Both the position numbers and the translations under genes were made by a program. From NCBI GenBank assembly GCA_946893605.1, contig OX335598.1, forward strand, positions 434,001-498,000: DNA of 64,000 bases, given 5' to 3'. This DNA is from Candidatus Saccharimonadota bacterium (GTDB taxonomy: Bacteria; Patescibacteriota; Saccharimonadia; Saccharimonadales; Saccharimonadaceae). Every line of letters starts with the position of its first letter. The stretch's first letter is position 1. This document shows positions 2,846-61,325 of this stretch, one piece after another. Below the pieces are notes generated by a model. The model was not told the DNA's origin and did no database searches. It saw nothing but the letters and a program-made list of their open reading frames with translations.

Positions 2846-2874
2846 TTGACTTTTTATGTCGTTTATGGTAATAT
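2846..2874 (+). promoter_or_regulatory. Promoter giving a leaderless mRNA
   Basis: TTGACT, 17-nt spacer, TAATAT, then 7 nt to the ATG at 2882. The transcript would begin at or one base before the start codon; there is no SD. Confidence 0.75.
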
Positions 2875-2881
2875 ACAAGAC

Positions 2882-3388
2882 ATGAGTAAAGAACTATCAC
2901 AAAATATAGTAGAATCTAAAAATAAAACAACGACAACAGAATCTCCTAAAAAGTTAGGAAGGATAGCTCTGGCCCTCTCCCTAATAGCTGGCGGCACTCT
3001 CGTGTATGCAGCAAGACAAGCCAATATGCCCGAGCAAAAGCCTAGTGCGCAAGAAGAGATCGCTCGGTTTGTAGATGACTACAGAGAAGGAACGGCAGAC
3101 TTGCCTGATGATGCAGTAGTGGAGACGTTCACTATAGAAGAAGGCGGAAATATAGTTAACGAAACCACCAAACTAGCCAAGGAGAACAACTTCAGCCAAG
3201 ACGAAATGAATCATCTAGGCGAAGGTGTTCTAGCAAGTGCACAAGCAGTATACGGCTTCAATAAAGAACAAGGAGAAGAGCCTTCATCGTCAGCGAAAGT
3301 GCGGGCGGGCGATCAAGTCAAGGCTGTCGTTGGAGACGCAAATGGAGACGGCATACGAGACGTAGTAGTAGTAGAGGTGGAACGCTAA
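2882..3388 (+). CDS. Membrane-anchored protein with a calcium-loop-like C-terminus
   Basis: A 168-residue protein with a short cytoplasmic Lys-rich N-terminus, one transmembrane helix (IALALSLIAGGTLVYAA, ~residues 37-53) and an acidic extracellular part. Near the end, DANGDGIRD resembles a Dx[DN]xDG calcium-binding loop of the EF-hand/dockerin kind. Function unknown. The ATG at 2882 is chosen over the upstream ATG at 2846 because the promoter occupies 2846-2874. It stands alone, divergent from the rpmF operon and convergent with leuS (7-bp gap). Confidence 0.7.
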   Translation: MSKELSQNIVESKNKTTTTESPKKLGRIALALSLIAGGTLVYAARQANMPEQKPSAQEEIARFVDDYREGTADLPDDAVVETFTIEEGGNIVNETTKLAKENNFSQDEMNHLGEGVLASAQAVYGFNKEQGEEPSSSAKVRAGDQVKAVVGDANGDGIRDVVVVEVER

Positions 3389-3394
3389 GTCAAC

Positions 3395-5896
3395 TTAGCT
3401 AACAATATTCACCAACTTACTTGGAACATAAACCATCTTTTTAGGTGGTTTATTGTTTGTAAACTTTTGGACGTTTTCGTCAGCCAGAGCCGCCGCTTCA
3501 ACACTCTGCTCGTCCATATCACTCGGCAGTTCAAGTTTCGCACGAAGCTTGCCGTTCACTTGAACTATAATAGTCACCGTATCGCTCTTTAGATATTCTT
3601 CGTCCCACTTCGGCCAGTGACCAACGTGAACCGTATCATCATGACCCATTTCACGCCACAATTCCTCTGTGATATGCGGAGCAAAAGGCGCCAAAATCTG
3701 GATCAAACTTTCTAACGCAAATCGCCACTCGTCCGACATGTCAATTCCATGCGACTCTTTTATCTTATACAGACCATTGACCATTTCCATCATCGAAGCC
3801 ACGGCTGTATTAAACTTCTCATCTTCAATATCGCGAGTAACTTTTTTAATCGTCAAATGAGTTAACCGCAATAATTCTTGGGTTGTTTTTTCATTCGCGC
3901 CAAGAGAGTCGTTTGGATTCCTATCAACGAACTCCTGAACCAAGTTCCATGCTCGATTTAAGAACCTGTAAGTTCCCGGAACGCCACGAGGATCCCATGG
4001 TGCGTCCATGTCATAAGGCGCGATGAACATTTCGTAAACTCGCAACGCGTCGGCACCATATCCGCTGTCCATAATCTCCATTGGATCAATGACATTGCCC
4101 TTAGACTTGGACATTTTCTGACCGTCTGGCGCCATAATGTATGCATTGTACATCATTCGCTTAAAAGGTTCTGGAGTCGGAACGAGACCGAGCTTATGGA
4201 AAAATCGCATCCAAAAACGACTGTATAGCAAGTGAGCCACGGCGTGATCGGCGCCATTGTAATAATCAATCGGCATCCAATGGTTAATTCTCTCAGGATT
4301 CCACGCTTCATTATCATTGTGCGGGTCGAGATATCGCAAGAAATACCAGCTAGAACAAGCATAGCCATCCAAAGTATCGGTCTCGCGTCGACCTTCTACC
4401 CAATTATCGCCATCAGGCTTGTTTTCTGTAATCGGCACAGTTTTTCCAGTTTCAACATCCACCCAGACTCGCACCCAATCATCAACTTGGGCCAAAACAG
4501 AAGTATTCCCGCCCGTTGGCTTAAAGTTCTCCACCTCTGGTAAAATCACCGGCAAGCACTCATCAGCCACGGCAATTGGCGCGCGGCCATCAACATGAAC
4601 AATTGGAATCGGAGCGCCCCAATAGCGCTGACGAGAAATCAACCAATCGCGCATTTTATACGTGGTTTTGCTTCGTCCGGAATTCTGCTGCTCCAGCCAC
4701 GCAACAATTTGCTCACGGGCATCCTCACTCCTGGTCCCGTTAAATTGTCCGGAATTTATCAACTCACCCTCACCAGAATAACAGCCAACATCGGCCGAAT
4801 GCTCAGGCTTATCAATAACTTGGATAATCGGTAAGTCAAACTTCTCAGCAAACGCAAAATCGCGCTCGTCGTGCGCTGGCACAGCCATGACTGCGCCGGT
4901 TCCATAGCCGCCCAAAACATAATCCGCCACCCAGATCGGCAATTTTTGACCATTAACTGGGTTTATGACATAACTGCCGGTAAATACGCCTGTTTTCTCT
5001 TTATTCTCTTGACGTTCAACATCAGATTTTTGTTGCGAAGCTTGGACATACACTTCAACCTTTTCGCGCGTATCAGAATTGACCAACTGAGGAATCAGAG
5101 GATGCTCCGGCGCCAAAGCTACATACGTCGCGCCAAATAACGTGTCAGGACGAGTTGTGAAAACTGTAATCTTGTAATCTTGACCACTAACCGCAAACTC
5201 AACTTCCGCGCCAGCTGATCGACCGATCCAATTCTTCTGCATGGTTTTAACCATTTCCGTCCAATCAAGCGCATCGGTTGCCTCTAAAATTTCATCTGCA
5301 TACGCCGTAATTCGGAAAAACCACTGCTTGAGATTTCGCTTGGTTACAGGATTGCCGCAGCGCCAACATTTGCCACCTTCAACCTGTTCGTTAGCAAGCA
5401 CCGTGTTATCAGTTTCGCACCACCATTGCGGCTGCTCTTTTTGATATGCCAAATCGTGCTTATACAATTGTGTAAAAATCCACTGAGTCCATTTGTAATA
5501 CTCTGGATCAGCTGTAGAAATTTCTTTTGTCCAATCATAACTAAACCCAAGTTGCTTCAATTGCTCCTTAAAATGAACTTTTGCCTCATCATGCGCTACA
5601 CGCGGCGTTTTTCCGACTTTAATAGCGTAATTTTCAACCGGCAGACCAAAGCTGTCCCAGCCGATTGGATGATAGACATTATAGCCCTGCTGACGCTTAA
5701 ATCGTGCCTTGATGTCGGCAAATTGAAAAGTACGACCGTGACCAATGTGAATTCCCGCCCCTGTAATCCCCGGAAGCATGCTCAAACTGTAATATTTCGG
5801 TCGGGTCGTGTCATTAAAATCAACCGCGTAAGTGCCGTCAGCCTCCCATTTGTTTTGCCATTTTTGTTCAATTTCTGTCGGATTATAGCGTCTCAT
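3395..5896 (-). CDS. leuS: Leucyl-tRNA synthetase
   Basis: This 833-residue class I synthetase charges tRNA-Leu. Visible motifs are HIGH at ~50-53 in AGIHIGHGRTF, a zinc-knuckle-like CETDN/CWRC region, the editing insertion with TTRPDTLFGATYVA, and KMSKSKGNVID at ~residue 600, followed by the anticodon-binding and C-terminal domains ending in the characteristic VYVPSKLVNIV. Length is normal. It is uninterrupted, unlike alaS and metG in this window. Its own extended -10 lies 7 nt before the ATG with no SD, so a leaderless message is expected. Confidence 0.97.
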   Translation of the reverse strand: MRRYNPTEIEQKWQNKWEADGTYAVDFNDTTRPKYYSLSMLPGITGAGIHIGHGRTFQFADIKARFKRQQGYNVYHPIGWDSFGLPVENYAIKVGKTPRVAHDEAKVHFKEQLKQLGFSYDWTKEISTADPEYYKWTQWIFTQLYKHDLAYQKEQPQWWCETDNTVLANEQVEGGKCWRCGNPVTKRNLKQWFFRITAYADEILEATDALDWTEMVKTMQKNWIGRSAGAEVEFAVSGQDYKITVFTTRPDTLFGATYVALAPEHPLIPQLVNSDTREKVEVYVQASQQKSDVERQENKEKTGVFTGSYVINPVNGQKLPIWVADYVLGGYGTGAVMAVPAHDERDFAFAEKFDLPIIQVIDKPEHSADVGCYSGEGELINSGQFNGTRSEDAREQIVAWLEQQNSGRSKTTYKMRDWLISRQRYWGAPIPIVHVDGRAPIAVADECLPVILPEVENFKPTGGNTSVLAQVDDWVRVWVDVETGKTVPITENKPDGDNWVEGRRETDTLDGYACSSWYFLRYLDPHNDNEAWNPERINHWMPIDYYNGADHAVAHLLYSRFWMRFFHKLGLVPTPEPFKRMMYNAYIMAPDGQKMSKSKGNVIDPMEIMDSGYGADALRVYEMFIAPYDMDAPWDPRGVPGTYRFLNRAWNLVQEFVDRNPNDSLGANEKTTQELLRLTHLTIKKVTRDIEDEKFNTAVASMMEMVNGLYKIKESHGIDMSDEWRFALESLIQILAPFAPHITEELWREMGHDDTVHVGHWPKWDEEYLKSDTVTIIVQVNGKLRAKLELPSDMDEQSVEAAALADENVQKFTNNKPPKKMVYVPSKLVNIVS

Positions 5897-5903
5897 ATCT
5901 GTA

Positions 5904-5912
5904 ATTATAGCA
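5904..5912 (-). promoter_or_regulatory. Extended -10 of leuS
   Basis: TGCTATAAT on the minus strand, 7 nt before the leuS ATG. Its TG element follows directly from the tail of the upstream terminator. Confidence 0.75.
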
Positions 5913-5943
5913 AATAATCCCGCTCATTACGAACGGGATTATT
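5913..5943 (-). terminator. Terminator abutting the leuS promoter
   Basis: AATAATCCCG / CGGGATTATT form a 10-bp stem downstream of the 5962-7050 gene. The 3' arm runs into TTTGCTATAAT, so terminator and next promoter are merged. Confidence 0.75.
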
Positions 5944-5961
5944 ATTAGGCAATTAAGCTAT

Positions 5962-7091: not shown

Positions 7092-8377
7092 TCAATCTTT
7101 AAATTGTGAGAAAAATTGGTTTTTCCTAGCAATCCACTCCGGCGTTTGCCTGACTAAGTATTTATCGTCCTCAGTGCTATGAAGGTTGATTTTTATAGAT
7201 TCCTCTAGCCATACACCGCCGCTTGAACCCTTAAACAGAGCAACGCCTTCAGATTTCAATTTGTCGCGCACGAAAGACCCAGCCTCGATGGCATTCTTAC
7301 ATTCCTTCACCTGGCAACCTCTTTGGCGTGCAGCTGGCGCTAAATATTGATTAGCTTTCTCACCAACCGTCACAACCCAATCCAACAAATCCGGGCTACA
7401 ATGAGAACCAAGTTCGGCGTGAGCTTGCTCGAAAATTCCCTTTAAGCCATTCATATTGCCAAGTACAGCAATTCGCTGCGGAGTCTCAATTCGATACAAA
7501 GACTGCAAAGCAGCCAAAGCAGTCAACGGCGTCGAACTATAGCTATCATCAATCAGCCAAGTATTATCCGCGCCCTTCAGCAAATTCATCCTGCCAGGCA
7601 GTGGACGCAAATTCTCTATACCTTTTTTATATTCTCCTCAGTTTCACCAAACGCATACCCAATAGCTGCCGCCACGATTGCTGGACGAATATTATGCTCG
7701 CCAATTAGCTTAACATTGACTTCTAATCCATTAGGATTTTCTGGCGACACAATAAAGCCATGATGTCCGTCTTTCAGGGAAAAATTACGATCGTCAAAAT
7801 TATACTCCGCCACGGGATCACTTCCGTAAGTAGTGATATTAGGATTTGTCAAAACTAGCAAAACGCCCGTCGATGTCATCACGATTTATCATCGCCATTC
7901 GCGAGAAATTCGCCAGCGAAATCATCTCATTCGCCACTTCCTCCAAAGAATATTCAACCTGCATTCGACCATTCGTCACAGAAGTTACAACCGTAATATC
8001 CGGCACAACATAGTCCTTAAACCAGTCGTTATAGCCAAGTTCCTTTGGATTAAATTCCTGAACAATTACCTGAACTTCCGGTTTTTCGGCCTTAATTCTC
8101 TTCTTTACGGCGCGCATCACTTTCCACCATTTGAACAAGCCTTTTTCAGGCATTTTCACACCCATCATCTGAAGGAAAACGTCAGCTTTCGTCTTCGGCT
8201 CTTCATTACGAAGCTGAATATCAAATTGTTGCGCCAAAACCGTACCGATAGCTATTTTTGCGCTAGCCTTTCCAGCGCTACCAGTTATCGCCACAAGCTT
8301 CACATCTGGATGAACAGCAAAAAATTCTCGCACTAATTTTGCTAGTTTTTCTTCCCTTTTTTTGAAACAGTAACCAT
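7092..8377 (-). CDS. murF: MurF-like Mur ligase, interrupted by frameshifts
   Basis: Mur-ligase family, most like UDP-MurNAc-tripeptide:D-Ala-D-Ala ligase. The parts in order are a P-loop variant ITGSAGKASAK (the usual GKTT is GKAS), a central domain with TSVTNGRM and MINRDDIDGRFAS, HNIRPAIVAAAIGYAFG, and a C-terminal domain with LRPLPGRMNLLKG and LIDDSYSSTP. Single-base slips split the frame near 8360 (A run), 7850 (T run) and 7620 (A run). Restoring one base at each site gives a continuous protein of ~428 aa. The start at 8377 is set by a leaderless-type promoter. These could be sequencing errors or real decay; the altered P-loop deserves a check. Confidence 0.75.
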
Positions 8378-8383
8378 AACTAT

Positions 8384-8392
8384 ATCATACCA
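8384..8392 (-). promoter_or_regulatory. Extended -10 of the murF-like gene
   Basis: TGGTATGAT with a 6-nt gap to the ATG at 8377, placing the A of ATG at +1. Confidence 0.6.
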
Positions 8393-11648: not shown

Positions 11649-12524
11649 TTACATCTTTGTTGCGTTATTTCTCAACCTTGCAATTCTGTCTTCTAGTGGT
11701 GGATGAGTACTAAATAGTTTCGAGAAAAATCCGGGCTTCAAAGGATTATTCATGAACAAGTTGGCAGTGGAAGAACTTTGTTTTTGCATTGGTCTGCCGT
11801 ATTGACGTAATTTTTCCAGCGCGCTTGCTAGCCCTTCAGTATCTCGTGTCAATAATACACCCGAAGCATCCGCCAGATATTCACGCTGCCTACTAACTGC
11901 CAGCTGAGTTATCGTTGCCAAAAGCGGCGCCAATATACCCACAGTCAACCCGAAAGCGTAGATGATAGGATTGACACCTCTATCACGGTCGTCACTATAA
12001 AACATCATCCTAAGCGCCAAATCTGCAAATAGACCAATTGCACTAACCAGACCAAAAGCGATCATACTCACACGGATGTCGTAATTTCGCACGTGGCTCA
12101 TTTCATGCGCCATAACTGCCTCCAGCTCACGCTTGTCCATAATATCCAAAAGCCCAGTAGTCGCACCAACAATAGCATGATTCGGATCGCGACCAGTAGC
12201 AAAAGCGTTTGGAGCTGGATCATTGATAATATAGACTTTCGGCATCGGCATACCAGAAGCGATAGACAAATTTTCCACCACTCGCCAAAGCTCAGGAGCG
12301 TCATTTTTACTAATTTCCTGAGCGCCAGTCATCATCATAGCCAACTTGCCAGCTATAAAATATTGCAGCCAAGCATACAATATCGCGCATATGAAAATGA
12401 TAAGCGCCAGTGAATAGCTATCAGTTGCCACGCCGATAAACAAACCGATAATTCCAATAATTATCACAAACACAGACATAATTAATATTGTGTTGCGTTT
12501 GTTTTGAGAAACTGCATTGTACAT
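11649..12524 (-). CDS. htpX: HtpX-type membrane zinc metalloprotease
   Basis: 291 residues with two N-terminal transmembrane helices, the M48 zinc motif HEMSH (in MAHEMSHVRNYDIR), two more helices and the downstream zinc-ligand region SRQREYLADASG. HtpX degrades misfolded membrane proteins from the cytoplasmic side. Length fits the family. The extended -10 (12531-12539) lies 6 nt before the ATG, giving a leaderless message. It follows lemA, a common partner in bacteria. Confidence 0.96.
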   Translation of the reverse strand: MYNAVSQNKRNTILIMSVFVIIIGIIGLFIGVATDSYSLALIIFICAILYAWLQYFIAGKLAMMMTGAQEISKNDAPELWRVVENLSIASGMPMPKVYIINDPAPNAFATGRDPNHAIVGATTGLLDIMDKRELEAVMAHEMSHVRNYDIRVSMIAFGLVSAIGLFADLALRMMFYSDDRDRGVNPIIYAFGLTVGILAPLLATITQLAVSRQREYLADASGVLLTRDTEGLASALEKLRQYGRPMQKQSSSTANLFMNNPLKPGFFSKLFSTHPPLEDRIARLRNNATKM

Positions 12525-12530
12525 ATGTTA

Positions 12531-12539
12531 ATTATACCA
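12531..12539 (-). promoter_or_regulatory. Extended -10 of htpX
   Basis: TGGTATAAT, 6 nt before the htpX ATG, directly after the terminator U-tract. Confidence 0.75.
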
Positions 12540-15706: not shown

Positions 15707-16081
15707 TTACTCCTTTTCTTCCCGCTGCAAAACCAGCGCGCTACTTATAATATAGTTTACCAAACTCAATATAATCCCGGCAATAATTGAATGCGCAAAA
15801 GTCATAGAAATTCCTGGTGCCAAAGCGAGCGAAATATAAACCATAAAGCCGTTCACAATTAAGGTAAACAGTCCTAATGTCAATAGAATTGCTGGCAGAG
15901 CTAAAATTGTAACAATTGGCTTCAATACGCTATTCACTACCGAAAATATCAACCCCGCCATCATAAACGTCCACGCAGAAGTTGTACCCGGAGTTTCGTT
16001 TCCAAGCAGCCGCACCGCAACCCAAATACCTACCGAGTTAAGAATCAGCCGAATCAAGAACGTTGCAAATTGTCTTTTCAT
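15707..16081 (-). CDS. YvlD/holin-family-4-like membrane protein
   Basis: 124 residues with four hydrophobic segments and the pattern of the YvlD/'phage holin family 4' superfamily: an N-terminal FLIRLILNSVGIWVAVRLLG and a central SVVNSVLKPIVTILALPAILLTLGLF. Function of this family is unknown; despite the name it is a chromosomal envelope protein. TATAAT lies 7 nt before the ATG with no SD, making it the leaderless first gene of an operon with secG and the peptide-binding protein. Confidence 0.82.
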   Translation of the reverse strand: MKRQFATFLIRLILNSVGIWVAVRLLGNETPGTTSAWTFMMAGLIFSVVNSVLKPIVTILALPAILLTLGLFTLIVNGFMVYISLALAPGISMTFAHSIIAGIILSLVNYIISSALVLQREEKE

Positions 16082-16088
16082 TAGTCTT

Positions 16089-16094
16089 ATTATA
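16089..16094 (-). promoter_or_regulatory. -10 hexamer of the YvlD-like/secG operon
   Basis: TATAAT, 7 nt before the ATG at 16081. Confidence 0.65.
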
Positions 16095-16131
16095 TATAAT
16101 TTATGCTTTATTGTCGATTGAATACTTGATT

Positions 16132-18186: not shown

Positions 18187-18906
18187 TTAATCGATGCTAC
18201 GTAAATATTCCTCCAAAAACCCACTCCACTCGGGCGCATTCTTCTCGTGGAAATAGGCACGAAGAAAATCAACCATAATTTGATGACGATTTTCTGCTTC
18301 TGCTCGTCCTGGTTCAGTCAACATCAAACCTTTCAATTTCAGCAGCTTCTCAAAGAAGTGATTGATAAATCCATCAGTGTCATGCGTATTACCATCAGCG
18401 TTATATTCGTGCGCCGCCAGATTGACATTCGGCCAGACTTTAGGGTCAAAAATCCGACCGCCGTGATGACAAGCATAAGTCAACGCCCGCTCAATGCCGA
18501 CCGCACCAATAGCATCACACATATCAGCGTCAGACGCCAATTTCCCCGCCAGCCGCTGCGACTGCTTGCCGTTCAGCCGTTTGCTATAACCAATCGCCGC
18601 AATATTTTCCAGCACAACCTGGCTTAAATCATCAGCTATCTCTGCCTGCTCCATAATATCTACTGCGTTTGTCAATTTTTCCGCCTGCGTTTTACCGACC
18701 AATTTATAATCATCAACATCATGTAGCCAAGCCGTCAATAGCACTTCTTGCAGGTTCACTGATTCGCTGCATTCGTTAGCAAAACGCTCCGCCAGCAACG
18801 CCACTCGCTCGACATGATCATCAGCATGTCCCGAAGTGTCGCCGCCTAGCAACTGCCGAACTTTAGCCTTTACTATTTCAAGCTGGGAAATTTGTCGATC
18901 GTTCAT
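18187..18906 (-). CDS. HD-domain phosphohydrolase (YedJ-like)
   Basis: 239 residues with HD metal motifs: an early His in HADDHVERVA, HD in TAWLHDVDDYKL, and a later Asp in LASDADMCDAIG, as in YedJ/PA2701-type HD hydrolases. The helix AACHHGG-like ALTYACHHGGRIF and AHEYNADGNTHDTDGFINHFFEKLLKL are typical. Substrate unknown. I start at the ATG at 18906 because TATAAT lies exactly 6 nt upstream; the longer frame to 18954 would start inside the promoter. Confidence 0.85.
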   Translation of the reverse strand: MNDRQISQLEIVKAKVRQLLGGDTSGHADDHVERVALLAERFANECSESVNLQEVLLTAWLHDVDDYKLVGKTQAEKLTNAVDIMEQAEIADDLSQVVLENIAAIGYSKRLNGKQSQRLAGKLASDADMCDAIGAVGIERALTYACHHGGRIFDPKVWPNVNLAAHEYNADGNTHDTDGFINHFFEKLLKLKGLMLTEPGRAEAENRHQIMVDFLRAYFHEKNAPEWSGFLEEYLRSID

Positions 18907-18912
18907 ACTCAT

Positions 18913-18918
18913 ATTATA
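18913..18918 (-). promoter_or_regulatory. -10 hexamer of the HD gene
   Basis: TATAAT preceded by TG, 6 nt before the ATG at 18906; no SD. Confidence 0.65.
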
Positions 18919-18934
18919 CATAAAACAGCGTCGC

Positions 18935-20175: not shown

Positions 20176-20567
20176 TATTTCCTCCTTTTCTGGCATTTTT
20201 TACAAACTCCCGTCACAACCAACGGACCGTCAATATAACAATCGCTAATTTCATGCGCAATTTGCTTTCTCATTTCATCGGCAATTTTAATATCCATCAA
20301 GCCATCACAGTCACTACACACAAAATGATCGTGATCGTCCTTACGAATATCATATCGCAAGCAGCCTTTTTTGGTCGGCGGCGCCAAACCAATCACCCCG
20401 TCGCCACACAGGCGCTGAGTTATTCGATGCACCGTCGTGTCGCTGACTTCAGGATGAATATTCCGCAACTCCTGAGCAATTTCCGCATTCGTCGCGTGAT
20501 GTTTACTCTTTAAAATCGCCATCACATCATTCGTGTATTTTGTTGATCGCCTAGCAATTTGCGTCAT
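20175..20567 (-). CDS. Fur/PerR-family metalloregulator
   Basis: 130 residues: winged-helix DNA-binding domain (TNAEIAQELRNIHPEVSDTTVHRITQRL) and a dimerisation half with the regulatory HDHFVCSDC segment and a structural zinc site made of C84/C87 and C122/C125. PerR, Zur or Fur specificity cannot be told, but cotranscription with thioredoxin points to peroxide/redox control. The promoter -10 is part of a perfect palindromic box, so it likely represses itself. Leaderless: TACAAT lies 6 nt from ATG. Confidence 0.9.
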   Translation of the reverse strand: MTQIARRSTKYTNDVMAILKSKHHATNAEIAQELRNIHPEVSDTTVHRITQRLCGDGVIGLAPPTKKGCLRYDIRKDDHDHFVCSDCDGLMDIKIADEMRKQIAHEISDCYIDGPLVVTGVCKKCQKRRK

Positions 20568-20573
20568 ATCCCT

Positions 20574-20592
20574 ATTGTAAAGTATTTACAAT
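20574..20592. promoter_or_regulatory. Palindromic Fur/PerR-type operator over the fur -10
   Basis: ATTGTAAAGTATTTACAAT: 8-bp arms ATTGTAAA/TTTACAAT around a 3-nt centre. On the minus strand its last six bases TACAAT are the fur -10. The architecture is that of a Fur-family box and predicts autorepression of fur-trxA. Confidence 0.75.
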
Positions 20593-22560: not shown

Positions 22561-22569
22561 TGCTATAAT
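22561..22569 (+). promoter_or_regulatory. Extended -10 of the DedA gene
   Basis: TGCTATAAT, 6 nt before ATG 22576; no SD. Confidence 0.75.
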
Positions 22570-22575
22570 TAAGGT

Positions 22576-23224
22576 ATGGAATCTTTTATTCACTTGATAA
22601 CTAGCTTCGGCGTATTGGCAATTTTATCAGTAATTTTCGCAGAATCCGGTCTACTAATCGGCTTCGTCTTACCTGGCGACAGTCTGCTTTTCACCGCTGG
22701 ATACATGGTTCAGCAGAACATCCTACACATTGACATTCACATTTTTGCGCTTTTGGTTTTGCGGCTGCAGTGCTGGGCGACAGTGTTGGTTATAGTTTTG
22801 GTCACAAAGTTGGGCGCAAGTTGTTTGGAAAAGAAAATTCCCGATTCTTCAGAAAAAATATTTGGAGCAAACAGAAAAGTTTTACGATAAGCACGGCTCA
22901 GCGACAATCGTCCTGGCTCGGTTTGTGCCAATTGTAAGAACCTTCGCCCCAATCGTTGCCGGCGCCAGTAAAATGCACTATAAAACGTTCTTAACTTTCA
23001 ATCTTATCGGTGGATTTCTTTGGTCGTCACTGTTCGTTTATCTAGGCTTCTACGCCGGAGAATTCCTAACCAAAGCGGGCGTAAATATTGAAGTTGCAGC
23101 AATCCTCATTATCTTCCTGTCTGTCTCACCAATGGCTATTCATGCTTTGAAACAACCAAATACTCGCGCTTTATTAAGAAAACAATTGTCAGTTCTCCTC
23201 TCGAAAACCAAGCGTAAAAAGTAG
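22576..23224 (+). CDS. DedA-family membrane protein, frameshifted
   Basis: ~215 residues after repair. Family marks: ESGLLIGFVLPGDSLLFTAGY, GDSVGYSFGHKVGRKLFG (in the shifted frame), and FVPIVRTFAPIVAGASKM followed by NLIGGFLWSSLFVYLGFYAG. DedA proteins are lipid scramblase/flippase-like and move undecaprenyl phosphate or phospholipids. One base is lost at ~22755 (T run) and one at ~22858 (A run). Leaderless start. Confidence 0.9.
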
Positions 23225-38366: not shown

Positions 38367-38375
38367 ATTATACCA
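38367..38375 (-). promoter_or_regulatory. Extended -10 of alaS
   Basis: TGGTATAAT, 7 nt before ATG 38359. Confidence 0.75.
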
Positions 38376-38381: not shown

Positions 38382-38404
38382 AACCCCACCTTATAGATGG
38401 GGTT
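38382..38404 (-). terminator. rpsP terminator next to the alaS promoter
   Basis: AACCCCA / TGGGGTT stem on the minus strand followed by ATTTTATGG and then TATAAT of alaS. Confidence 0.75.
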
Positions 38405-41655: not shown

Positions 41656-41661
41656 TTTTTT

Positions 41662-41670
41662 ATTATATCA
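41662..41670 (-). promoter_or_regulatory. Extended -10 of the iscS operon
   Basis: TGATATAAT, 6 nt before GTG 41655; it overlaps the end of the 41668-42105 gene. Confidence 0.7.
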
Positions 41671-43254: not shown

Positions 43255-44768
43255 CTATTTAACCTGAGATTCTGTTTTCGGAGCGCGTGGATCTGGCGTG
43301 TGAATATATTTGCGCGGGAACAAAGGCGTCAATTCTGACGGCACGACACCACTGGCAAACATATCATGAATTTTCTCAGCAGTTTGCGGCATAAATGGAC
43401 GAAGCATGTCAGATACTTGCAATAATGTGCCACAAGCGTGTGCCAAGATCTCACTCAAATGCAACTCTGCTTCTGGATCTTTATCACGATTTTTAGCAAC
43501 TTGCCAAGGCTGAACTCGCTCAATATATTGATTCAAAGAACGAACAATTAGCCAAATTTCGTCCATTGCTTGGTCAAACATATAACTTTCCATCGCCTGA
43601 CGATACGGTCCCATATCGTGTTCTGATTGTGGAGCGTCACCAATAACGCCCGCTTGATAACTCTGCACCATTTTAGCGACTCGCTGAACCAAATTGCCCA
43701 AATCATTGCCAAGCTCACCATTATACGCAGCTTCAAACTTTTCCCAAGTAAAGTCACCGTCGTCTTGCGTTGGTACGTGGCGCAAAAAATAATATCGAAA
43801 CGCCTCGGCACCATAATCTGGAATAATATCGGGCTGACCAACACCATTTCCGAGACTCTTTGACATTTTCATTCCGCCAGAATTAATAAATCCATGAACA
43901 AGCAGAACCTTCGGAAGCGGTAAATCTAGCGCCATGAGCATTGCTGGCCAAATACCAGCGTGGAAACGGAGAATGTCCTTGCCAATGACTTGCACGTCAG
44001 CCGGCCAAAAAGATTGCCACTCTTCTGGACGATCAGGATAACCGATAACCGTAATGTAATTACTCAGAGCGTCCAACCAGACGTACATGACTTGATTATC
44101 ATCACCAGGAACCGGTACGCCCCAGCTAAGATTTTTACGCGGGCGAGAAACCGACACGTCTTTCAGGCCGTCTTTCATCAATTCCAAAAACTCTTTTTTA
44201 CGGAACTCAGGTACGATTCTCATTTTATTTGACTCAATTGCCTGGCGAATATTGTCCGAAAAAGCACTGGTTTTAAAATAGTAATTTTCCTCACTCAAAC
44301 GCTGATATGTGGCGTCTGGTGATCTGGACAAACCCCATTATTATCGGCAGCTTCTTTATCCGTAACGAAAGCTTCGCACCCCTGACAATACCAGCCTTCA
44401 TATGAACCTTTGTAAATGTAACCAGCCTCAACGAGCTTTTGCCAAATATATTGCACCGCAGCAACGTGATGCGCGTCAGTTGTTCGAATAAAATCTGTCA
44501 CTGAAATATTCAGCTCAGCAATCATCTTCTTAAAATTGACGTGCGTTTGATCGACGTATTCTTGAGGGGTTTGATTTTGACTGGCGGCTTTGGCGGCAAT
44601 TTTATTGCCATGCTCATCCGCGCCAGCTTGAAAACGAACTTCACGCCCGTTCTGTCTGGAATAACGCGCCCACACGTCCGCCAACATATAATCCATAGCG
44701 TGCCCAACGTGTGGCAAGCCGTTTACGTAAGGAATAGCGGTAGTGATGTAAGCGTGTTTCTTAGTCAT
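43255..44768 (-). CDS. metG: Methionyl-tRNA synthetase, one frameshift
   Basis: ~504 residues. HIGH-type LPHVGHAMDYMLADVWARY, a knuckle with CQGCEAFVTD and CPDH, KMSKSLGNGVGQPD, and the anticodon-binding helices. No C-terminal tRNA-binding (Trbp111) domain. One C is missing near 44310 (CPDHP-DATYQR). Extended -10 TGCTATAAT lies 6 nt upstream of ATG, no SD. It heads an operon with tatD and two small unknowns. Confidence 0.95.
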
Positions 44769-44774
44769 AGGTAA

Positions 44775-44783
44775 ATTATAGCA
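44775..44783 (-). promoter_or_regulatory. Extended -10 of metG
   Basis: TGCTATAAT, 6 nt before ATG 44768. Confidence 0.75.
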
Positions 44784-44826: not shown

Positions 44827-44835
44827 TGATATAAT
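44827..44835 (+). promoter_or_regulatory. Extended -10 of the 44865 gene
   Basis: TGATATAAT, followed by a second TATAAT at 44836-44841. The leader (~23 nt) contains AGGAGGGG at 44853-44860, so unlike most operon leaders this gene has a normal SD. Confidence 0.65.
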
Positions 44836-44864
44836 TATAATCACAATTTATTAGGAGGGGAGTT

Positions 44865-46310
44865 ATGAACAAACTCATAAAAAACTTAACCGTAGCCGCA
44901 GCTATTAGCATTGCTATAATCGGCGTCTACACACCAGCAACAGCAAGCGCCAACGGAGGAAGCTGGCAGAGGGATTCAGTTGGATGGTGGTATAAAAATT
45001 CCAATGGAAGTTACCCAAAGAATGATTGGCAACGAATAGATGGTAAATGGTATTACTTTGATGGACGCGGATACATCACACATAGCAAATGGGAGCGTAT
45101 AAAGGATTATTGGTATTACTTTAATACCAGCGGACATATGACCGAAAACGCCTGGGAAATGATTGGCGACAAGTGGTACTACTTCGACAACAAAGGTCAT
45201 ATGCTGTCCAATCAATGGGTCGGCGACTACTACGTCGGCAGAGATGGTTACATGTTAAAGAACACTATTACACCAGACAATTATGTAGTTGGAAGCGACG
45301 GAAAATGGGACAAGAGGTTTTCAAGAGAATTAGCAGAGAAAGCTAAAAACCGAAACCTATATAGGTCCGATATTTCCAAATATGCAGAAGCTTACAATAT
45401 TACCTTCGGAAATAGAGGAGAATACAATAACGCACTCCAATTAATCGAGATAATTTACCCAGAATACAACGCTGTAGATAACGCGAAAAGAGCAATTAAA
45501 AAAATTGTAAACAACCAAAACAGCTCTAACAATCCTGGAGAGTTCCGATACTCAAAATATTTAATAATACAAAGCCTTACTGACCGTAAAGTCAGTGAAA
45601 ACAGCCACAGTACTTACATGTTCTCAGAAGAAGAGGTTAATAAGGCTTTTGCGGCACTGAGAAGCGAAATCGACTTTTCTAAATTCTTTAAAGATCAAGC
45701 TATAAAGAGCCTACAGAATATAGAACACGTGTATACCATCTCATCAAAAGTCAACTACGAAAAATACCTCGCAGCTAAAAGATTCACTAAAGAAGAGATT
45801 GACAATGCCTTTAATACAGTAAAAATTGACTTTGCATATAACGCTCAACGACAAGCAGAAAGACTACTGAAAGATTATATGTCTGAATCTTCAAAATTGC
45901 GCATCATAAAATGGCTGCAGAATGAGGACAACCACTTCACTAAAGAAGAGGCAGAAGCAGGAGTTAATCGGCTAAATTACGACTTCAAGATAAATATACG
46001 CAATTGGATAAATATACGTTCCTTAGGTGACGACAACACACAGGCATGGGCTAAACTGTATTCAAAGAATAGCATAATACGTCATCTGACAGATAGTAAT
46101 GAATTCGTAGAATCAGAGGTTCGGGAAGTGCTAGCAGAATACAATATCAATTACACCGAGCGAGCACGACTACGAGCTATAGATATTCTGAAAAATGAAA
46201 AATATAGTAGAAGTAACTTGATAAAAACTCTTATCAACTATTATAAGTTCACCGAAGAAGAGGCCACCAACGCCGTTAAGGATTTAAAACACGAAAATCT
46301 AACTGATTAA
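44865..46310 (+). CDS. Secreted protein: choline-binding-type repeats plus Ltp-like repeats
   Basis: 481 residues. Signal peptide (LTVAAAISIAIIGVYTPATASA), then four or five ~20-residue aromatic repeats (W..I.GKWYYFDGRGYITH, WERIKDYWYYFNTSGHM, WEMIGDKWYYFDNKGHM) of the cell-wall/choline-binding type. From ~150 on there are about six ~45-residue helical repeats ending FTEEEATNAV or FTKEEAEAGV, resembling the host-cell surface-exposed (Ltp) lipoprotein family. No lipobox or sortase signal. Wall-binding repeats could hold it on its own or a host's wall. The AT-rich, Asn/Lys-rich coding sequence and isolated position could mean acquisition. Confidence 0.8.
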   Translation: MNKLIKNLTVAAAISIAIIGVYTPATASANGGSWQRDSVGWWYKNSNGSYPKNDWQRIDGKWYYFDGRGYITHSKWERIKDYWYYFNTSGHMTENAWEMIGDKWYYFDNKGHMLSNQWVGDYYVGRDGYMLKNTITPDNYVVGSDGKWDKRFSRELAEKAKNRNLYRSDISKYAEAYNITFGNRGEYNNALQLIEIIYPEYNAVDNAKRAIKKIVNNQNSSNNPGEFRYSKYLIIQSLTDRKVSENSHSTYMFSEEEVNKAFAALRSEIDFSKFFKDQAIKSLQNIEHVYTISSKVNYEKYLAAKRFTKEEIDNAFNTVKIDFAYNAQRQAERLLKDYMSESSKLRIIKWLQNEDNHFTKEEAEAGVNRLNYDFKINIRNWINIRSLGDDNTQAWAKLYSKNSIIRHLTDSNEFVESEVREVLAEYNINYTERARLRAIDILKNEKYSRSNLIKTLINYYKFTEEEATNAVKDLKHENLTD

Positions 46311-47173: not shown

Positions 47174-48192
47174 TTAGCGCCCATCTCCATTAGTCCAGTC
47201 GGTCGCTAGGTCAAATCCGTGCGGATGTTTGGCTGCAAATCCACCAGTATCGTAAACCTTGCCTAGACCCATACTAGTCTCAACCACCGAGCATCGTGGA
47301 TAATTACCATAATTAGCCGCCACCAAAATATAGCCATCCTTATCGACCTTCGCGCCGTCCGCCCGCACCGTATAAGTACCGCCGCTACCACAAGCTTTTA
47401 TCACAATATTCATCGGCAAATCATAATACGTTTCACGATGCGCCACGCCCTTAGAGTCGGTAAATATCTGCGCGCCCTTACTTTTCGTCAATGGATTTTT
47501 AGGCTTCGTGCCAATTATTTCAATCTGCTTCTTTGACTGCTTTGTGATTTCGCTAGCAACTTCCTTACGACTAATCTCGCGCTCGTTCTCTACCTCAACC
47601 TGATAAGTCATCTTCCGCACACCCTTTTCTCCAAGTTGTTTTACACTCTTAAATCCAATCGGCTGAGAATCGTCCTTAATCTGCTCAATCTCAAAATTGA
47701 CATCAACTTCTTCGGCTATCGTTCGCTGTTTTGATCGTTCAATCTTCATCACCAAGCCAACGCCGTTCACCAAAAGATCGTCAGAATTTGTAAAATGCGT
47801 CTTATCTTCGCGATACAAAGTCAGCCCAGCAGCCTTCGCAATCAAAGCTGGCGTTTGTTCAGCGGTGGTTATTTTCAGGCGTTTATTCCCATCGACAATT
47901 GTTATTGGACGAGCGCGGAAAATATTGACCTGGTATTTTGCACCCGTCAATTCCATATCAATATTTGGCTCAACCGCGTCAATCTTTTCATCAATCGTAA
48001 TCTTAGCTGCACGCAAAGCCTGCCGGACGGTCAATGCACTTGTGATAATGGTCTTTTCTTCGCCGCGATCATAAATACGAACTAAATACTCACCAAGTCT
48101 TTCCGTCAACAAACGAAATCATTGGAGTCCTCAATCGCAACCAACACAGCTAATCCAATAATTTTTCCAAAAAATAAACCTTTTGCGCGCAT
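47174..48192 (-). CDS. YabE/Rpf-like wall protein with DUF348, G5 and 3D domains
   Basis: ~340 residues. N-terminal membrane/signal helix (GLFFGKIIGLAVLVA) from ATG 48192, then two DUF348 repeats (YDRGEEKTIITSALTVRQAL), a G5 domain (VNFEIEQIKDDSQPIG...KQIEIIGTK) and a C-terminal 3D domain with the three Asp (VYDTGGFAAKHPHGFDLATDW) as in YabE and MltA, a glycan-cleaving fold. A frameshift near 48120 separates the signal helix from the rest. TATTAT lies 6 nt before the ATG. Tandem paralogue of the next gene. Confidence 0.83.
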
Positions 48193-48198
48193 AATCAT

Positions 48199-48204
48199 AT
48201 AATA
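48199..48204 (-). promoter_or_regulatory. -10 hexamer of the 3D-domain gene
   Basis: TATTAT, 6 nt before ATG 48192. Confidence 0.5.
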
Positions 48205-48286
48205 ACTCGTTAACCTAGTCAAATAAATTATACCAGATTAAGCACTTTTATCTATAGGCTACGGCCAGCACGTCGCCAGCGTTGGT

Positions 48287-49509: not shown

Positions 49510-51611
49510 TCAAATTTTCTCCAAGCGTGCGAACTCGACGTTCAATTTCTTGATATTTCCATTGTCAAACTGAACCGTAACGCTCAGCCCTTCGCTATCA
49601 ATAATTTTCCCCGAACCAAAACTCGGGCTGCGAACTCGATCACCAACTTCCAAACCAATATCTTCTGAATAAAAATCAGGCTCTATCATCGGCTGAGCTG
49701 GTCTATCAACACCACCAGCCATCAAGCCCATCTCATCCAAAAACCTCGATGGCATATTATAGCCGATCTGACCAAATTGCGTCCGAGAACTAGCACAACT
49801 AACGAATAATTCTTCCCTCGCCCGAGTTACTCCAACGTAGCACAACCTGCGCTCCTCTTCGACATCATCAGCGTTGCCGCTATCAAACACCCTCGCGTGC
49901 GGCAAAATCCCCTCTTCCAGTCCCGCCAAAAAAACCACCGGAAACTCCAAACCTTTAGCCGCATGAAGCGTCATGAGCGTTACTTGTTGATCGGCAGTTG
50001 TATCCGTCGAAGACATCAAAGCCATCTCTTCCAAAAACGTCGCCACATCAACGTAAGCCTTCGCCTCCGACAAAAGCACGCCGATATTTTCCATTCGCTC
50101 TTCAGCTTGCGGCGTTCCGTCGTTTATAAAATCTTCATAGCCAGTACTTTTCATAATTTTTTCAATCAGTTCGGCTGGAGATCCGTCAATTTCCTGCTGC
50201 AAATCGTGCAATTTTTGACCAAACTCTAGCAACGGACGTTTTGCGCGCGCTGTCAAAGTATCCGCCTCCTCAACCGCCAGCAACCCGCTAACTATGTCTT
50301 TCCCCGACGCGTCATTCCAGTCCAGAAACTTAGAAATACTTACTACCCCAACACCGCGTTTTGGTGTATTCACAATTCGCAAAAAACTAACTCGATCACT
50401 CGGCTGATATAACAATCGCAGATATGCCAATAGATCCTTAACGACCGCTCGATCCAAAAATCGCAGACCGCCGACGATTTTATACGGAATATAGCTCTGA
50501 CGCAAGGCTCGCTCAATTGCGTAACTTTGCGCATTCGTTCGATATAGCACCGCCACATCGCCATATTGACGACCGTTCGCAATTTGCGCCTGAATCTCAT
50601 TCGCAATCGCCAAAGCCTCCTCAGACTCATTGTATAATTGCCATAATTTTGGCTCAACACCGTCGCCATTCGCCGTCCATAAATTTTTATCAGTTCTATG
50701 AATATTATGACTAATCAGCGCATTTGCCATATTCAAAATCGCGCCAGTCGAACGATAATTTTGCTCCAGCTTAACCACCGTCGTGCCTGGAAAATCACGC
50801 TCAAAATTGAGAATATTAGTATAATCAGCCCCACGAAAACTATAAATCGACTGAGCGTCATCACCAACCACACATAAATTGCGACGCGAATTAACCAACA
50901 GCTTAATTAGCGCATACTGCACCGCATTCGTGTCCTGATACTCGTCAATCAGAATATGCTCGAATTGCTGCTGCCATTTATGGCGGATATCTGGCTTATT
51001 TCTCAATAATTCCACAGTTTTTATCAATAAATCGTCAAAATCCAACGCCGAAGCATCTTTCAAAGCTTTTTCGTAAGCGAAAAACAGCTCGGCTATTTTC
51101 TGCTCTCTTGGGTCGCGAGTCGAAGCAGAAAAATCCTCAACACTTCTCATCTCATTTTTAGCGTTTGAAATAGCCGAAAGTACAGCTCGAGGTTTAATAT
51201 CTTTATCCGTCAAACCGCGAGCTTTCATAATTTGCTTCATCAAGCTTATTTGATCATCGGTATCGTAAATTAAGAATCGCTTGTTCAGACCAATATTTTC
51301 ACCATCCATCCGCAACATTCGCACGCAAATACTGTGAAAAGTTCCCATCCACGGCATAAATTGCCGATTTTCAGAATCTTCACCCAATATTTGCGCCCAA
51401 TCGCTGACATTTCCTTCGCGGCTTTATTGGTAAATGTAACCGCCAATATTCGACTAGGAAATATTTTCAACTCGCCAATCAAATAAGCAATTCTATGAGT
51501 CAGAGTTTTGGTCTTTCCAGATCCGGCTCCAGCCAAAATCAACAACGACCCATCAACGTGCGTCACCGCTCGAGCCTGCTCGCTATTTAATCCGTCAGTA
51601 AATTTAGACAT
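49510..51611 (-). CDS. pcrA: UvrD/PcrA-type DNA helicase, one frameshift
   Basis: ~700 residues. SF1A helicase: Walker [14 protein letters not shown], motif [15 protein letters not shown], motif [18 protein letters not shown], motif [32 protein letters not shown], and VTRAREELF. It ends with the Tudor-like tail [20 protein letters not shown], as in PcrA. One base is lost near 51410 (after KEMSA). Extended -10 TGATAAAAT lies 6 nt before ATG, inside the upstream gene's last codons. Confidence 0.94.
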
Positions 51612-51615
51612 ATAT

Positions 51616-51905
51616 CTATTTTATCAGCAAAAAGTACGAAGCAGCGCCGCCAGCCATGCCAATTGCCAAAAATAGAACAATAAGCAACGCTAATAATCCA
51701 GATTTTTCTTTTCTTTGTCGGCTGAAGGCTTTACTTCTGTAGATACGGCGGCAAACATCGGTGCCGGCTCAGAATCCATAGTTTCTTTTTCGGATAATTC
51801 GGAAGATTCAATCAAAGAACTGTCAATGTCGGTGGACAATTTATCGTCTGAATCTTCAGGAACGCCAGCCTCCTCAATTGCTATAATTTCTGGACTCAAA
51901 TCCAT
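51616..51905 (-). CDS. Acidic protein with C-terminal membrane anchor, frameshifted
   Basis: ~95 residues after adding one A in the run at ~51708: an acidic, disordered stretch ([34 protein letters not shown]) followed by a basic turn and a transmembrane helix ([24 protein letters not shown]) ending LIK. Its ATG overlaps the stop of the preceding gene (TAATG) and has no good SD. Either it is translationally coupled to that gene, or both are one ~410-residue tail-anchored protein split by another indel. Confidence 0.55.
51618..51626 (-). promoter_or_regulatory. Extended -10 of pcrA
   Basis: TGATAAAAT, 6 nt before the pcrA ATG at 51611. Confidence 0.7.
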
Positions 51906-54896: not shown

Positions 54897-56318
54897 TTAT
54901 GACAACGTCTTGACTTGGATATTGTCAGTTTTACCTGGCTCTGGATTGTGACCGCTAACAAGCACAACCGTAACTGGGTCTGCGCCGAAATAGCCTTCTT
55001 GTTTCAACTCATCAGCTAGCTTAGTTGCTGCATTTGAATCGTTTGGTCGAACATATGGACGAGAAGCGTACCTTAGCGCCAACTTTTGCGCAGTCTTCAC
55101 GTCTTCGGTCACACAAACAATTGGTAGGTTCGGACGATATGCAGCAACGTTAATTGCAGTAGCGCCAGTGTGTGTTTCCGCAATAATAGCTCGAGCCTTA
55201 ATTCTCCTTGCCAGTTGAGCTGCTGTGTAGCTTAAAATCGCGTCAGTTTTTTCACGCATTTCAGCCTTTTCTACCAACATCACTTCACTGTGTTCTTGAG
55301 TGTAGATAATGGTCTTGCGCATTGCACGAACGGTTTCAACAGGATATTTACCATTGGCAGTCTCATCAGACAACATAACTACGTCAGCGCCTTGGATTAC
55401 GGCATTAGCAACGTCGCTTACTTCAGCACGACTTGGCTCTGGATTATCAACCATACTGCCCATCATTTGTGTTGCAACGATTACTAGCTTGCAATATTTA
55501 CGACACAAGGCAATAATTCGACGCTGTACAACTGGGACAATTTCCGCACCAGCTTCAACCGCCAAGTCACCGCGAGCAACCATAATACCGTCACTAGCCT
55601 TAACGATTTCCTCCAAATTCTCTGGATCAACGGCAGACTTAGTCTCAATCTTGGCAATAATATTTGCTGTCGAGCCCAGGTCTGTCAATCGACGACGTAA
55701 ATCAATAATGTCATCAGCTTTTTGGATAAAGCTCAATGCAACATAATCAAAATCTTGGCTTGCACCCCACTCCAAATCGTTAATATCTTTCTGAGTAAGA
55801 ATGTCGCCACCAAAATCTGTGTCTGGCAAATTCAAGCCCTTGCGACTCATCAAAAAACCGTCGTTCTGAACTTCTACGCGAATTGCAGTTGGGCTAACAA
55901 TTTCTCGCACAACCGTCCTGATCTTGCCGTCAAACATGTAAAGTGGCTCGCCGACTTTCATCTTCTCCGCCAAATTGTACTGCACTGGCAAATTGAAACT
56001 GCCGTCATGCTCGGTAATTTCTGAATCCAAGACCAACATATCGCCAACCTTAACATTCAGCATATTGTCTTTCAAAACGCCCAAGCGAATCTTTGGACCT
56101 TGCAAATCTTGTAGAATTGCTACAGGCTTACCCAGCTGTTTACTAGCTGTGCGCACCCAATCGATCTGCTCAATTCGCTCCTCATTAGCGCCGTGGCTAA
56201 AGTTCATACGGATGCCGTTAACGCCGGCCTCCAACAATTGGTAAACCTTTTCTTGGCTGAACGTTGCTGGCCCAATTGTTGCTAATATTTTTGTTCGTTT
56301 AAATATATTATTGCTCAT
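54897..56318 (-). CDS. pyk: Pyruvate kinase
   Basis: 473 residues: TKILATIGPATFSQEK, MNFSHGANEER, ILQDLQGPKIRLG, MVARGDLAVEAG (substrate/metal site) and TQMMGSMVDNPEPSRAEVSDVANAV, ending with the allosteric-type C domain. The ATG at 56318 is taken because TGATATAAT lies 7 nt upstream; the longer frame to 56393 would start before the promoter. It heads a lower-glycolysis operon; no gap gene is present here. Confidence 0.97.
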   Translation of the reverse strand: MSNNIFKRTKILATIGPATFSQEKVYQLLEAGVNGIRMNFSHGANEERIEQIDWVRTASKQLGKPVAILQDLQGPKIRLGVLKDNMLNVKVGDMLVLDSEITEHDGSFNLPVQYNLAEKMKVGEPLYMFDGKIRTVVREIVSPTAIRVEVQNDGFLMSRKGLNLPDTDFGGDILTQKDINDLEWGASQDFDYVALSFIQKADDIIDLRRRLTDLGSTANIIAKIETKSAVDPENLEEIVKASDGIMVARGDLAVEAGAEIVPVVQRRIIALCRKYCKLVIVATQMMGSMVDNPEPSRAEVSDVANAVIQGADVVMLSDETANGKYPVETVRAMRKTIIYTQEHSEVMLVEKAEMREKTDAILSYTAAQLARRIKARAIIAETHTGATAINVAAYRPNLPIVCVTEDVKTAQKLALRYASRPYVRPNDSNAATKLADELKQEGYFGADPVTVVLVSGHNPEPGKTDNIQVKTLS

Positions 56319-56325
56319 TTTTAAA

Positions 56326-56334
56326 ATTATATCA
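56326..56334 (-). promoter_or_regulatory. Extended -10 of the glycolytic operon
   Basis: TGATATAAT, 7 nt before pyk ATG 56318; leaderless. Confidence 0.75.
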
Positions 56335-60880: not shown

Positions 60881-60915
60881 AAAACAGCCCGCTACCAGAT
60901 GTAAACGAGCTGTTT
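60881..60915 (-). terminator. Island-supplied hairpin after tRNA-Glu
   Basis: On the minus strand ACAGCTCG / CGGGCTGT (one bulge) followed by TTTTT. It sits ~30 nt downstream of the tRNA 3' end and would replace the displaced native terminator. Confidence 0.55.
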
Positions 60916-60939
60916 CAAATCCGAACGGAATATAAATCC

Positions 60940-60956
60940 CTTTATGGTGACCTTAC
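60940..60956. repeat. Direct repeat / att site, tRNA copy
   Basis: CTTTATGGTGACCTTAC; overlaps the 3' end of the intact tRNA-Glu and matches 56792-56808 perfectly. Confidence 0.85.
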
Positions 60957-61018
60957 CGGGAATCGAACCGGATTGCCAGGATGAAAACCTGGTGTCCTAA
61001 CCGTTAGACGATAAGGCC
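60945..61018 (-). tRNA. tRNA-Glu (UUC)
   Basis: Acceptor GGCCTTA pairs with TAAGGTC, anticodon stem CAGG/CCTG with loop TTTTCAT (anticodon TTC), T-loop GTTCGATTC, encoded ACCA. It is the integration target of the island. Confidence 0.94.
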
Positions 61019-61097
61019 ACGACTTCAGATATCATAACAAATTATTGTCGAATTGTCTATAGCAAATCAGCCACTTCTCCGCCGTTATCTATTAATG

Positions 61098-61103
61098 TAT
61101 AAT
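61098..61103 (+). promoter_or_regulatory. -10 hexamer of the 61110 gene
   Basis: TATAAT preceded by TG, 6 nt before ATG 61110; leaderless. Confidence 0.65.
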
Positions 61104-61109
61104 ATTTCC

Positions 61110-61325
61110 ATGACAAAGCAGAAGAAAAAGCGCAATAAAAAATATTCTGGGATGGACGCGACATCTCAGCGACCAAAGGTAACAAGGATTACAGCAACGA
61201 ATCGCTCCAAATTATCTCAATGGTTTTTTGATCGGAAAAAGCTCATTCGCACCATTGGCATGGCGGGACTCGTTGCAATTACTTTAATTATCGTTATTTC
61301 TGGAATAATGAGTTTATTTCGTTAA
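61110..61325 (+). CDS. Small basic membrane protein
   Basis: 71 residues: a strongly basic N-terminal half (KQKKKRNKKY, RPKVTRITATNRSK) and one C-terminal transmembrane helix (GMAGLVAITLIIVISGIMSLF). Unknown, but the layout is typical of small CPR inner-membrane proteins. The ATG 61110 is set by TATAAT 6 nt upstream. Its stop overlaps the convergent kinase gene by 4 nt. Confidence 0.65.
   Translation: MTKQKKKRNKKYSGMDATSQRPKVTRITATNRSKLSQWFFDRKKLIRTIGMAGLVAITLIIVISGIMSLFR

Follow-up and report, generated by a model that had tools for sequence, protein, structure and literature searches.

Predicted leaderless genes behind sigma-70-type promoters placed at the start codon in a Saccharimonadaceae genome

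The stretch of DNA analysed here, referred to as the window, covers 64,000 nucleotides (positions 434001-498000 of contig OX335598.1, assembly GCA_946893605.1) of a Candidatus Saccharimonadota bacterium belonging to the family Saccharimonadaceae. The genome consists of one contig of 701,908 bases, is 83% complete and has a GC content of 43%, and the bacterium, a tiny one from the mouth, matches Saccharibacteria oral taxon 352: its obgE product and the one from TM7 phylum sp. oral taxon 352 share 99% identity. In the initial annotation of the window nineteen genes were listed in which a -10 promoter hexamer is separated from the start codon by a gap of 6 or 7 nt, with no Shine-Dalgarno (SD) site, and it was suggested that these genes are leaderless. 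We have found that this placement forms a sharp positional peak in the genome and is kept in related genomes, and we consider it very probable that leaderless mRNAs are made from sigma-70 promoters alongside SD-led genes.

When the listed starts were read singly, a -10-like hexamer at a gap of 6 or 7 nt was present at 19/19. A TGn lies directly 5' of the hexamer in 14/19, so that most are indeed extended as had been stated, whereas the claim of a good -10 at every site stood for the 17/19 that match TATAAT at 5/6 or 6/6 positions and had to be weakened for the 2882 and 26158 genes, which match at only 4/6. The positions that follow are window positions on the minus strand unless the plus strand is given, and the start codon is ATG in every case apart from the iscS-like gene. 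An extended TATAAT stands 6 nt before htpX (12522..12539; TGG-TATAAT), sbcB (29269..29286; TGA-TATAAT), metG (44766..44783; TGC-TATAAT) and dedA (22561..22578, plus strand; TGC-TATAAT), which is a 104-codon open reading frame (ORF) followed by an overlapping ORF in another frame, and 7 nt before leuS (5894..5912; TGC-TATAAT), alaS (38357..38375; TGG-TATAAT) and pyk (56316..56334; TGA-TATAAT). The iscS-like gene (41653..41670), with an aminotransferase class V domain downstream, has TGA-TATAAT 6 nt before a GTG, as had been claimed, and runs for 61 codons before its frame breaks; it is an exception to the AUG rule. Extended hexamers with other letters precede the Mur-ligase-like gene at 8377 (8375..8392; TGG-TATGAT, 5/6, 6 nt; frame break after 11 codons), obgE (30639..30656; TGG-TATACT, 6 nt), pcrA/uvrD (51609..51626; TGA-TAAAAT, 6 nt), the 27826 gene (27824..27842; TGC-TAAAAT, 7 nt), the 2882 gene of 168 aa (2866..2884, plus strand; TGG-TAATAT, 7 nt) and the 26158 gene (26142..26160, plus strand; TGC-TACAGT, 7 nt). 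Hexamers without the TG extension are those of the 16081 gene (16079..16097; TATAAT, 7 nt), the HD gene (18904..18921; TATAAT, 6 nt), fur (20565..20582; TACAAT, 6 nt), the G5-domain gene at 48192 (48190..48207; TATTAT, 6 nt; frame break after 28 codons) and the 61110 gene (61095..61112, plus strand; TATAAT, 6 nt). The names htpX, HD, fur, dedA, sbcB and pyk are taken from the initial annotation only, while Pfam agrees with the labels alaS, metG, pcrA, iscS and Mur ligase.

The reported lack of SD sites was borne out, since an SD core, scored as GGAG, GAGG or AGGA within 20 nt 5' of the start, was found at 0/18 of the scored starts and none could be seen by eye at the remaining one, 61110. A transcript that starts at the ATG would leave no room for an SD site. 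Two of the listed starts required revision. The 61110 start keeps its TATAAT at gap 6, and its strand was corrected to plus, where a 71-codon ORF begins; no start codon exists at that place on the minus strand. The 27826 start keeps its TAAAAT at gap 7 and is nonetheless doubtful, as an SD-led TTG lies 39 nt inside the same gene, at 27787.

The initial annotation had proposed that a genome-wide histogram of the distance between TATAAT matches and start codons should peak sharply at 6-7 nt, and a histogram without a peak was named as counting against leaderless genes. This was carried out on the window and twelve further stretches of 20 kb, together 304 kb of the 702-kb genome, and the peak was there. 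Hexamers matching at 5/6 or more positions were found before the ATG of ORFs of at least 100 codons 39 times at gap 6 and 24 times at gap 7, and 1-15 times at each other gap from 0 to 40. No peak at gaps 6 and 7 was seen at the ATGs of short ORFs, where the curve was flat, or at GTG or TTG codons in the same 304 kb. Among ORFs of at least 80 codons, TG-extended hexamers numbered 27 at gap 6 and 14 at gap 7, compared with 0-4 per gap (mean about 1) at gaps 11-35, which for gap 6 gives a Poisson probability of about 3e-26 with an assumed mean of 1.3. A smaller class at gaps 8, 9 and 10, with TG-extended counts of 4, 7 and 5, is also real. The start codon at TG-extended sites with gaps of 6 or 7 nt (ORFs of at least 100 codons) is ATG in 38 cases, GTG in 1 and TTG in 2. 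Furthermore, no earlier start codon is available in the ORF for 31/41 of the TG-extended ATGs, as against 288/1686 of other ATGs, and thus most of these starts are no artefact of start choice. Over the whole genome the strict motif TGNTATAAT-N6-ATG has 34 matches, whereas the reversed pattern has 1 and a control with a gap of 12 nt has 3. When twelve ORFs with starts of the leaderless type were compared with Pfam, families were found for ten and none for two; the matched ORFs include DnaG, DNA polymerase I, ThrRS-like and GluRS-like proteins, a class-1 release factor, RadC and an ABC ATPase.

The surroundings of the hexamers are those of a promoter. Over the 63 sites at gap 6 or 7, the two TG positions of an extended -10 hold T in 65% and G in 71%, and agreement with TTGACA is on average highest when the spacer is 17 nt long. 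This -35 element is weak, its best score reaching 4/6 or more in 27% of the 63 sites and in 14% of shuffled sequences. TGn before TATAAT together with a -35 element some 17 nt upstream, the mark of an extended -10 promoter of sigma-70, was therefore found at these sites. A search of the genome gave one sigma-70 region-3 match, whose region 2.4/3.0 reads RTIRIPVHMVETINK; we take this segment to be close to the part of the E. coli sigma factor that contacts the TG.

Bacterial RNA polymerase usually initiates with a pyrimidine at -1 and a purine at +1. If the A of the ATG is counted as +1, a pyrimidine stands at -1 in 36/39 gap-6 sites of this genome and A in none of the 39, and the same was seen in three relatives (10/10 in G109, 14/15 in G252 and 7/8 in G311), while the ATGs of short ORFs have a pyrimidine at -1 in 35-44%. 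Limiting the count to TG-extended gap-6 sites gave 26/27 in this genome and 23/23 in G109. Taken together with the usual initiator, this pattern indicates the A of the ATG as the likely +1.

Conservation was followed in three genes. For polA and leuS the rows compared were the 30 best-matching of 61 genomes searched, this genome included; one polA locus (L177), whose N-terminus is cut by a contig end, was left out. All 29 polA rows, which are the best matches within the family, have a hexamer of 4/6 or better, with a gap of 6 nt in 23 rows and of 7 nt in 6, while the upstream DNA has otherwise diverged so that little is kept besides the hexamer and its spacing. The leuS gene has kept its near-start -10 as well, TG-extended and at gaps 6-10 in 24/30 rows, the reading of one row (L131) being displaced by 3 nt from the ATG. 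For obgE, a hexamer at gaps 6-9 was found in 27/34 rows from Saccharibacteria and the candidate phyla radiation (CPR), 23 of them TG-extended, against 0/37 rows from Campylobacterota, Bacteroidota and others, a single one of which has it at gap 10. This tally leaves out L055, L094 and seven rows in which no start codon was present where one was expected. Outside the family, a TAnnnT hexamer of at least 5/6 precedes polA at gaps 6-10 in 18/28 rows (29 rows with L183, which has no start, dropped), a share that gives no estimate of frequency in the phylum, since the genomes were partly chosen for high motif counts. In two further rows, L182 and L212, the start had been picked too far inside the gene, and the box is found if an earlier in-frame ATG is taken.

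The strict motif was likewise counted in 379 genomes of the phylum, where at least one gap-6 match occurs in 351 and a gap-12 match in 213. In 24 sampled genomes of the bacterium's own family, sums made by hand came to 720 matches at gap 6, 44 at gap 12 and 12 for the reversed pattern, and the motif is commonest in one genus (g3), in which G109, G157 and G286 have 86-102 matches per genome. Outside the class it is commonest in family f81, where G163, G306, G357 and G365 have 32-37 matches and G132 has 19; in the six sampled genomes of family f61 there are 0 in four and 3 in two. In 80 kb of a genome of the same genus with a GC content of 53%, the same positional peak was obtained. These comparisons indicate that the predicted leaderless register is an old and conserved habit of the lineage.

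SD-led initiation has not been lost in this bacterium. The 3' end of its 16S rRNA retains the anti-SD CCTCC, and its genome carries IF3 as well as an ORF with four S1 domains. The initial annotation had described a clear division between first genes that are leaderless and internal genes led by SD sites, and with a gene caller that covers 73% of the sample and misses some genes, which blurs the two classes, this held as a tendency and not as a clean rule. The leaderless signal was found in 29/116 first, 12/44 intermediate and 6/92 internal genes (decoys 4-5, 1-2 and 0-1, respectively), the difference between first and internal genes being significant (P 0.0003, odds ratio 4.8), whereas an SD core was found at 52/92 tightly spaced internal genes (decoy 4) and also at 40/116 first genes (decoy 9). 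Of the 30 TG-extended leaderless genes that have an upstream gene on the same strand, 10 start 20-37 nt behind that gene; since no more than 15 nt 5' of the ATG are taken up by promoter and start, there is room for them in intergenic gaps of 20 nt.

A set of first genes is leadered. A strong SD with a TG-extended -10 at 18-59 nt is the less frequent arrangement, found in nine ORFs, in seven of which the -10 lies at 23-35 nt, and two of the nine overlap starts of the leaderless type. In the window this contrasting arrangement is represented by the 44865 gene (44827..44867, plus strand), which was correctly described as SD-led, with TGA-TATAAT 29 nt before its ATG and an AGGAGG SD. The product of the gene (44865-46310, plus strand) contains choline-binding repeats and might act as a factor on the cell surface that is turned towards the host. 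Elsewhere, a dnaX-like ORF (L008:14151-15599, minus strand) carries TGCTATAAT, 6 nt and an ATG, followed by two more ATGs with purine-rich stretches within 20 nt, and here the ATG of the leaderless type overlaps an SD-type start in another frame.

A number of observations weigh against a leaderless reading of these sites. Gene starts were called by an in-house method based on ORFs and coding scores. The -1 position of the gap-7 sites is unbiased, with about 55% pyrimidine, so that a leader of 0 or 1 nt is possible there, and the TG extension, seen at 14/19 listed sites, is present in only 10/29 polA rows. In the relatives' leuS the gap is mostly 7-9 nt, and among the leuS rows L131 and L135 look SD-led and L136 leadered; outside the family, 8/28 polA rows have no box. 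Other members of the family have as few as 1 match to the strict motif, and it is rare in some relatives (1 match in G311), although a looser peak persists there. The enrichment in first over internal genes did not reach significance in the relatives, for which the samples were smaller (4/28 vs 1/13 in G109, 10/31 vs 4/19 in G252 and 2/26 vs 0/11 in G311), and in 6/29 of the first genes bearing the signal a candidate start has an SD core as well, to which the rival SD-led start of the 27826 gene may be added. One of the twelve ORFs compared with Pfam (L005:13338) covers just the C-terminal portion of a tRNA synthetase and is probably a false match inside a gene.

Three other explanations were weighed. 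The hexamers could be real promoters whose transcripts mostly begin a few bases ahead of the ATG, or without a single fixed position, leaving leaders of 1-5 nt. The existence of the class at gaps 8-10, the gaps of 7-9 in most leuS rows and the unbiased -1 of the gap-7 sites would all fit such near-leaderless mRNAs, yet at gap 6, the commonest class in this genome, the -1 pyrimidine of TG-extended sites (26/27 here and 23/23 in G109) and the absence of A from all 39 sites speak for the A of the ATG as +1, as does a polA gap of 6 or 7 in 29/29 rows, and we regard this explanation as improbable. It was also considered that the hexamer is an unstructured or translation-enhancing element, for example a site for S1, and that the promoters lie at a greater distance 5' of the gene. 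The genome does encode a protein with four S1 domains, and a passage of PMC5397173 discusses AT-rich biases at -20 to -10 as possible S1 sites; however, the element is often TGnTATAAT, holds a fixed register and is preceded at 17 nt by a -35 signal, unlike a general A/U-rich stretch, the -1 pyrimidine initiator has no obvious translational reading, and polA has kept little except hexamer and spacing, all of which makes a role in translation very unlikely. That the peak arises by chance from an AT-rich genome or from the choice of starts can hardly be credited: single TATAAT-like hexamers are common at 43% GC, but the reversed pattern, the gap of 12, the decoy gaps and the short-ORF ATGs are all without a peak, and the 80 kb of the same-genus genome with 53% GC have it.

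Leaderless mRNAs from sigma-70 promoters, made beside SD-led genes, thus seem by far the best explanation. The hexamers would be the true -10 elements of housekeeping promoters of the sigma-70 type, often TGnTATAAT, with a weak -35 element 17 nt upstream, and RNA polymerase would take the A of the ATG as its first base, the pyrimidine standing before it at -1. This position of +1 is supported by the -35 spacing, the -1 pyrimidine, the near-exclusive use of ATG and the register kept in orthologues. The resulting mRNAs would have a leader of 0-1 nt, perhaps 1-3 nt for gaps 8-10, and their 5'-terminal AUG would be recognised by the ribosome, while about half of the tight internal genes and the set of leadered first genes would use SD sites with the intact anti-SD. 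The promoter part of this proposal is very well supported by the sequence, from which we infer the exact 5' end and the leaderless translation.

Terminator-like hairpins were observed beside three of the promoters, all on the minus strand. A 13-bp hairpin (5913..5943) runs into the extended -10 of leuS, the T-run of another (30662..30683) runs into that of obgE, and a third (38382..38404) adjoins the alaS promoter. A general fusion of terminators with leaderless promoters was rejected, as hairpins no more than 14 nt away from the -10 were found at 6/73 sites of this genome (about 1 expected) and, over four genomes, at 11/123 (about 2.8 expected) vs 6/108 SD-led controls. For leuS the association is weak (4/24 rows, 1.4 expected), and it is striking only for obgE, where 13/23 promoter-bearing orthologues have a hairpin in the same place (0.8 expected). 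The obgE hairpins (window 30639-30683; orthologues L027-L061) differ in stem sequence. Hairpin, promoter and AUG of obgE would together form a compact terminator/promoter/AUG module.

Several of the short ORFs at listed starts are due to frame breaks (8377, 11 codons; 48192, 28; 41655, 61), and alaS, metG and pcrA are each found in two frames. Seven genes appear to be frame-split in all, namely alaS (36477-38389), the iscS-like gene (40499-41655), metG (43255-44768), pcrA (49510-51611), the Mur-ligase-like gene (7092-8377), the dedA-like gene (22576-23224) and the G5-domain gene (47174-48192). These splits are probably indel errors of the assembly, which would fit the 83% completeness too, and the start sites are unaffected by them.

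Patescibacteria are a very large bacterial group. One may ask whether leaderless initiation is ancestral and general in Patescibacteria/CPR, such that a cassette of about 15 nt, consisting of -10, 6 nt and AUG on core genes of the polA type, predates the split of the classes and, sometimes fused to the T-run of a preceding terminator, replaced 5' untranslated regions (UTRs) as the usual start of core units. We put this combined proposal forward tentatively and think it somewhat more apt to fail than to hold. If it is true, UTR-based control, by riboswitches for instance, is ruled out for those core genes. Should the core genes be leaderless, there is no UTR to use and expression cassettes should be leaderless as well. 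The start-site rule TGnTATAAT, 6 nt, ATG can be checked and could improve the annotation of gene starts, and the finding bears on the question of leaderless initiation being an ancient bacterial mode.

Known systems offer a measure for these results. In 50 kb of E. coli K-12, taken as negative control, no peak was found, with 1 hexamer at gap 6 and 1 at gap 7 among 82 ORFs. On 50 kb of a Deinococcus deserti plasmid, the positive control, 9/28 annotated starts have TANNNT at gap 6, and no other gap has more than one; the 28 are those left of 31 after 962, 3540 and 35412, which lie close behind another gene, had been excluded by eye, and TANNNT was used because TATAAT at 5/6 or more gave none at gap 6 on this plasmid. 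The register seen here is thus that of a known leaderless-rich bacterium, in which, according to a passage of PMC9031893, leaderless mRNAs may reach 60% of genes. The same source describes, in part of its text, leaderless mRNAs on 70S ribosomes with the AUG at or very near the 5' end, as is predicted here, and for E. coli a preference of leaderless mRNAs for AUG over GUG or UUG, which may be compared with the ATG preference in this genome. SD-led initiation is shared with other bacteria through the intact anti-SD, the SD sites at 52/92 internal genes and leadered first genes such as 44865, whereas the listed genes differ from it in having no SD.

The closest likeness is to the TA-led leaderless genes of Actinobacteria and Deinococcus-Thermus, a class which, in the portion of the article drawn on here, was computed for many bacteria (Zheng et al. 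2011, PMC3160421). What marks such genes, a -10-like TANNNT about 12 bp 5' of the start with a peak above decoys, was found here, and SD genes stand alongside and an operon-proximal position is expected, as in that account. Compared with the same account, the hexamers of this genome differ in being near-consensus TATAAT or TATACT and often TG-extended, in a reduced genome of 43% GC and in another phylum; the term TM7 does not occur in the main text of that paper. Among the matches listed for the open-access papers searched, there was no report of leaderless genes in this phylum, and an earlier classification may exist in subscription papers or preprints, which lie outside that search. In the portions of text available from PMC6851277, PMC7441243 and PMC10434106 the word leaderless stands only in reference titles, and in that from PMC12641178 it is used for YchF. 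What is described here is a new lineage for a known kind of leaderless genes, the kind known from Deinococcus and the Actinobacteria.

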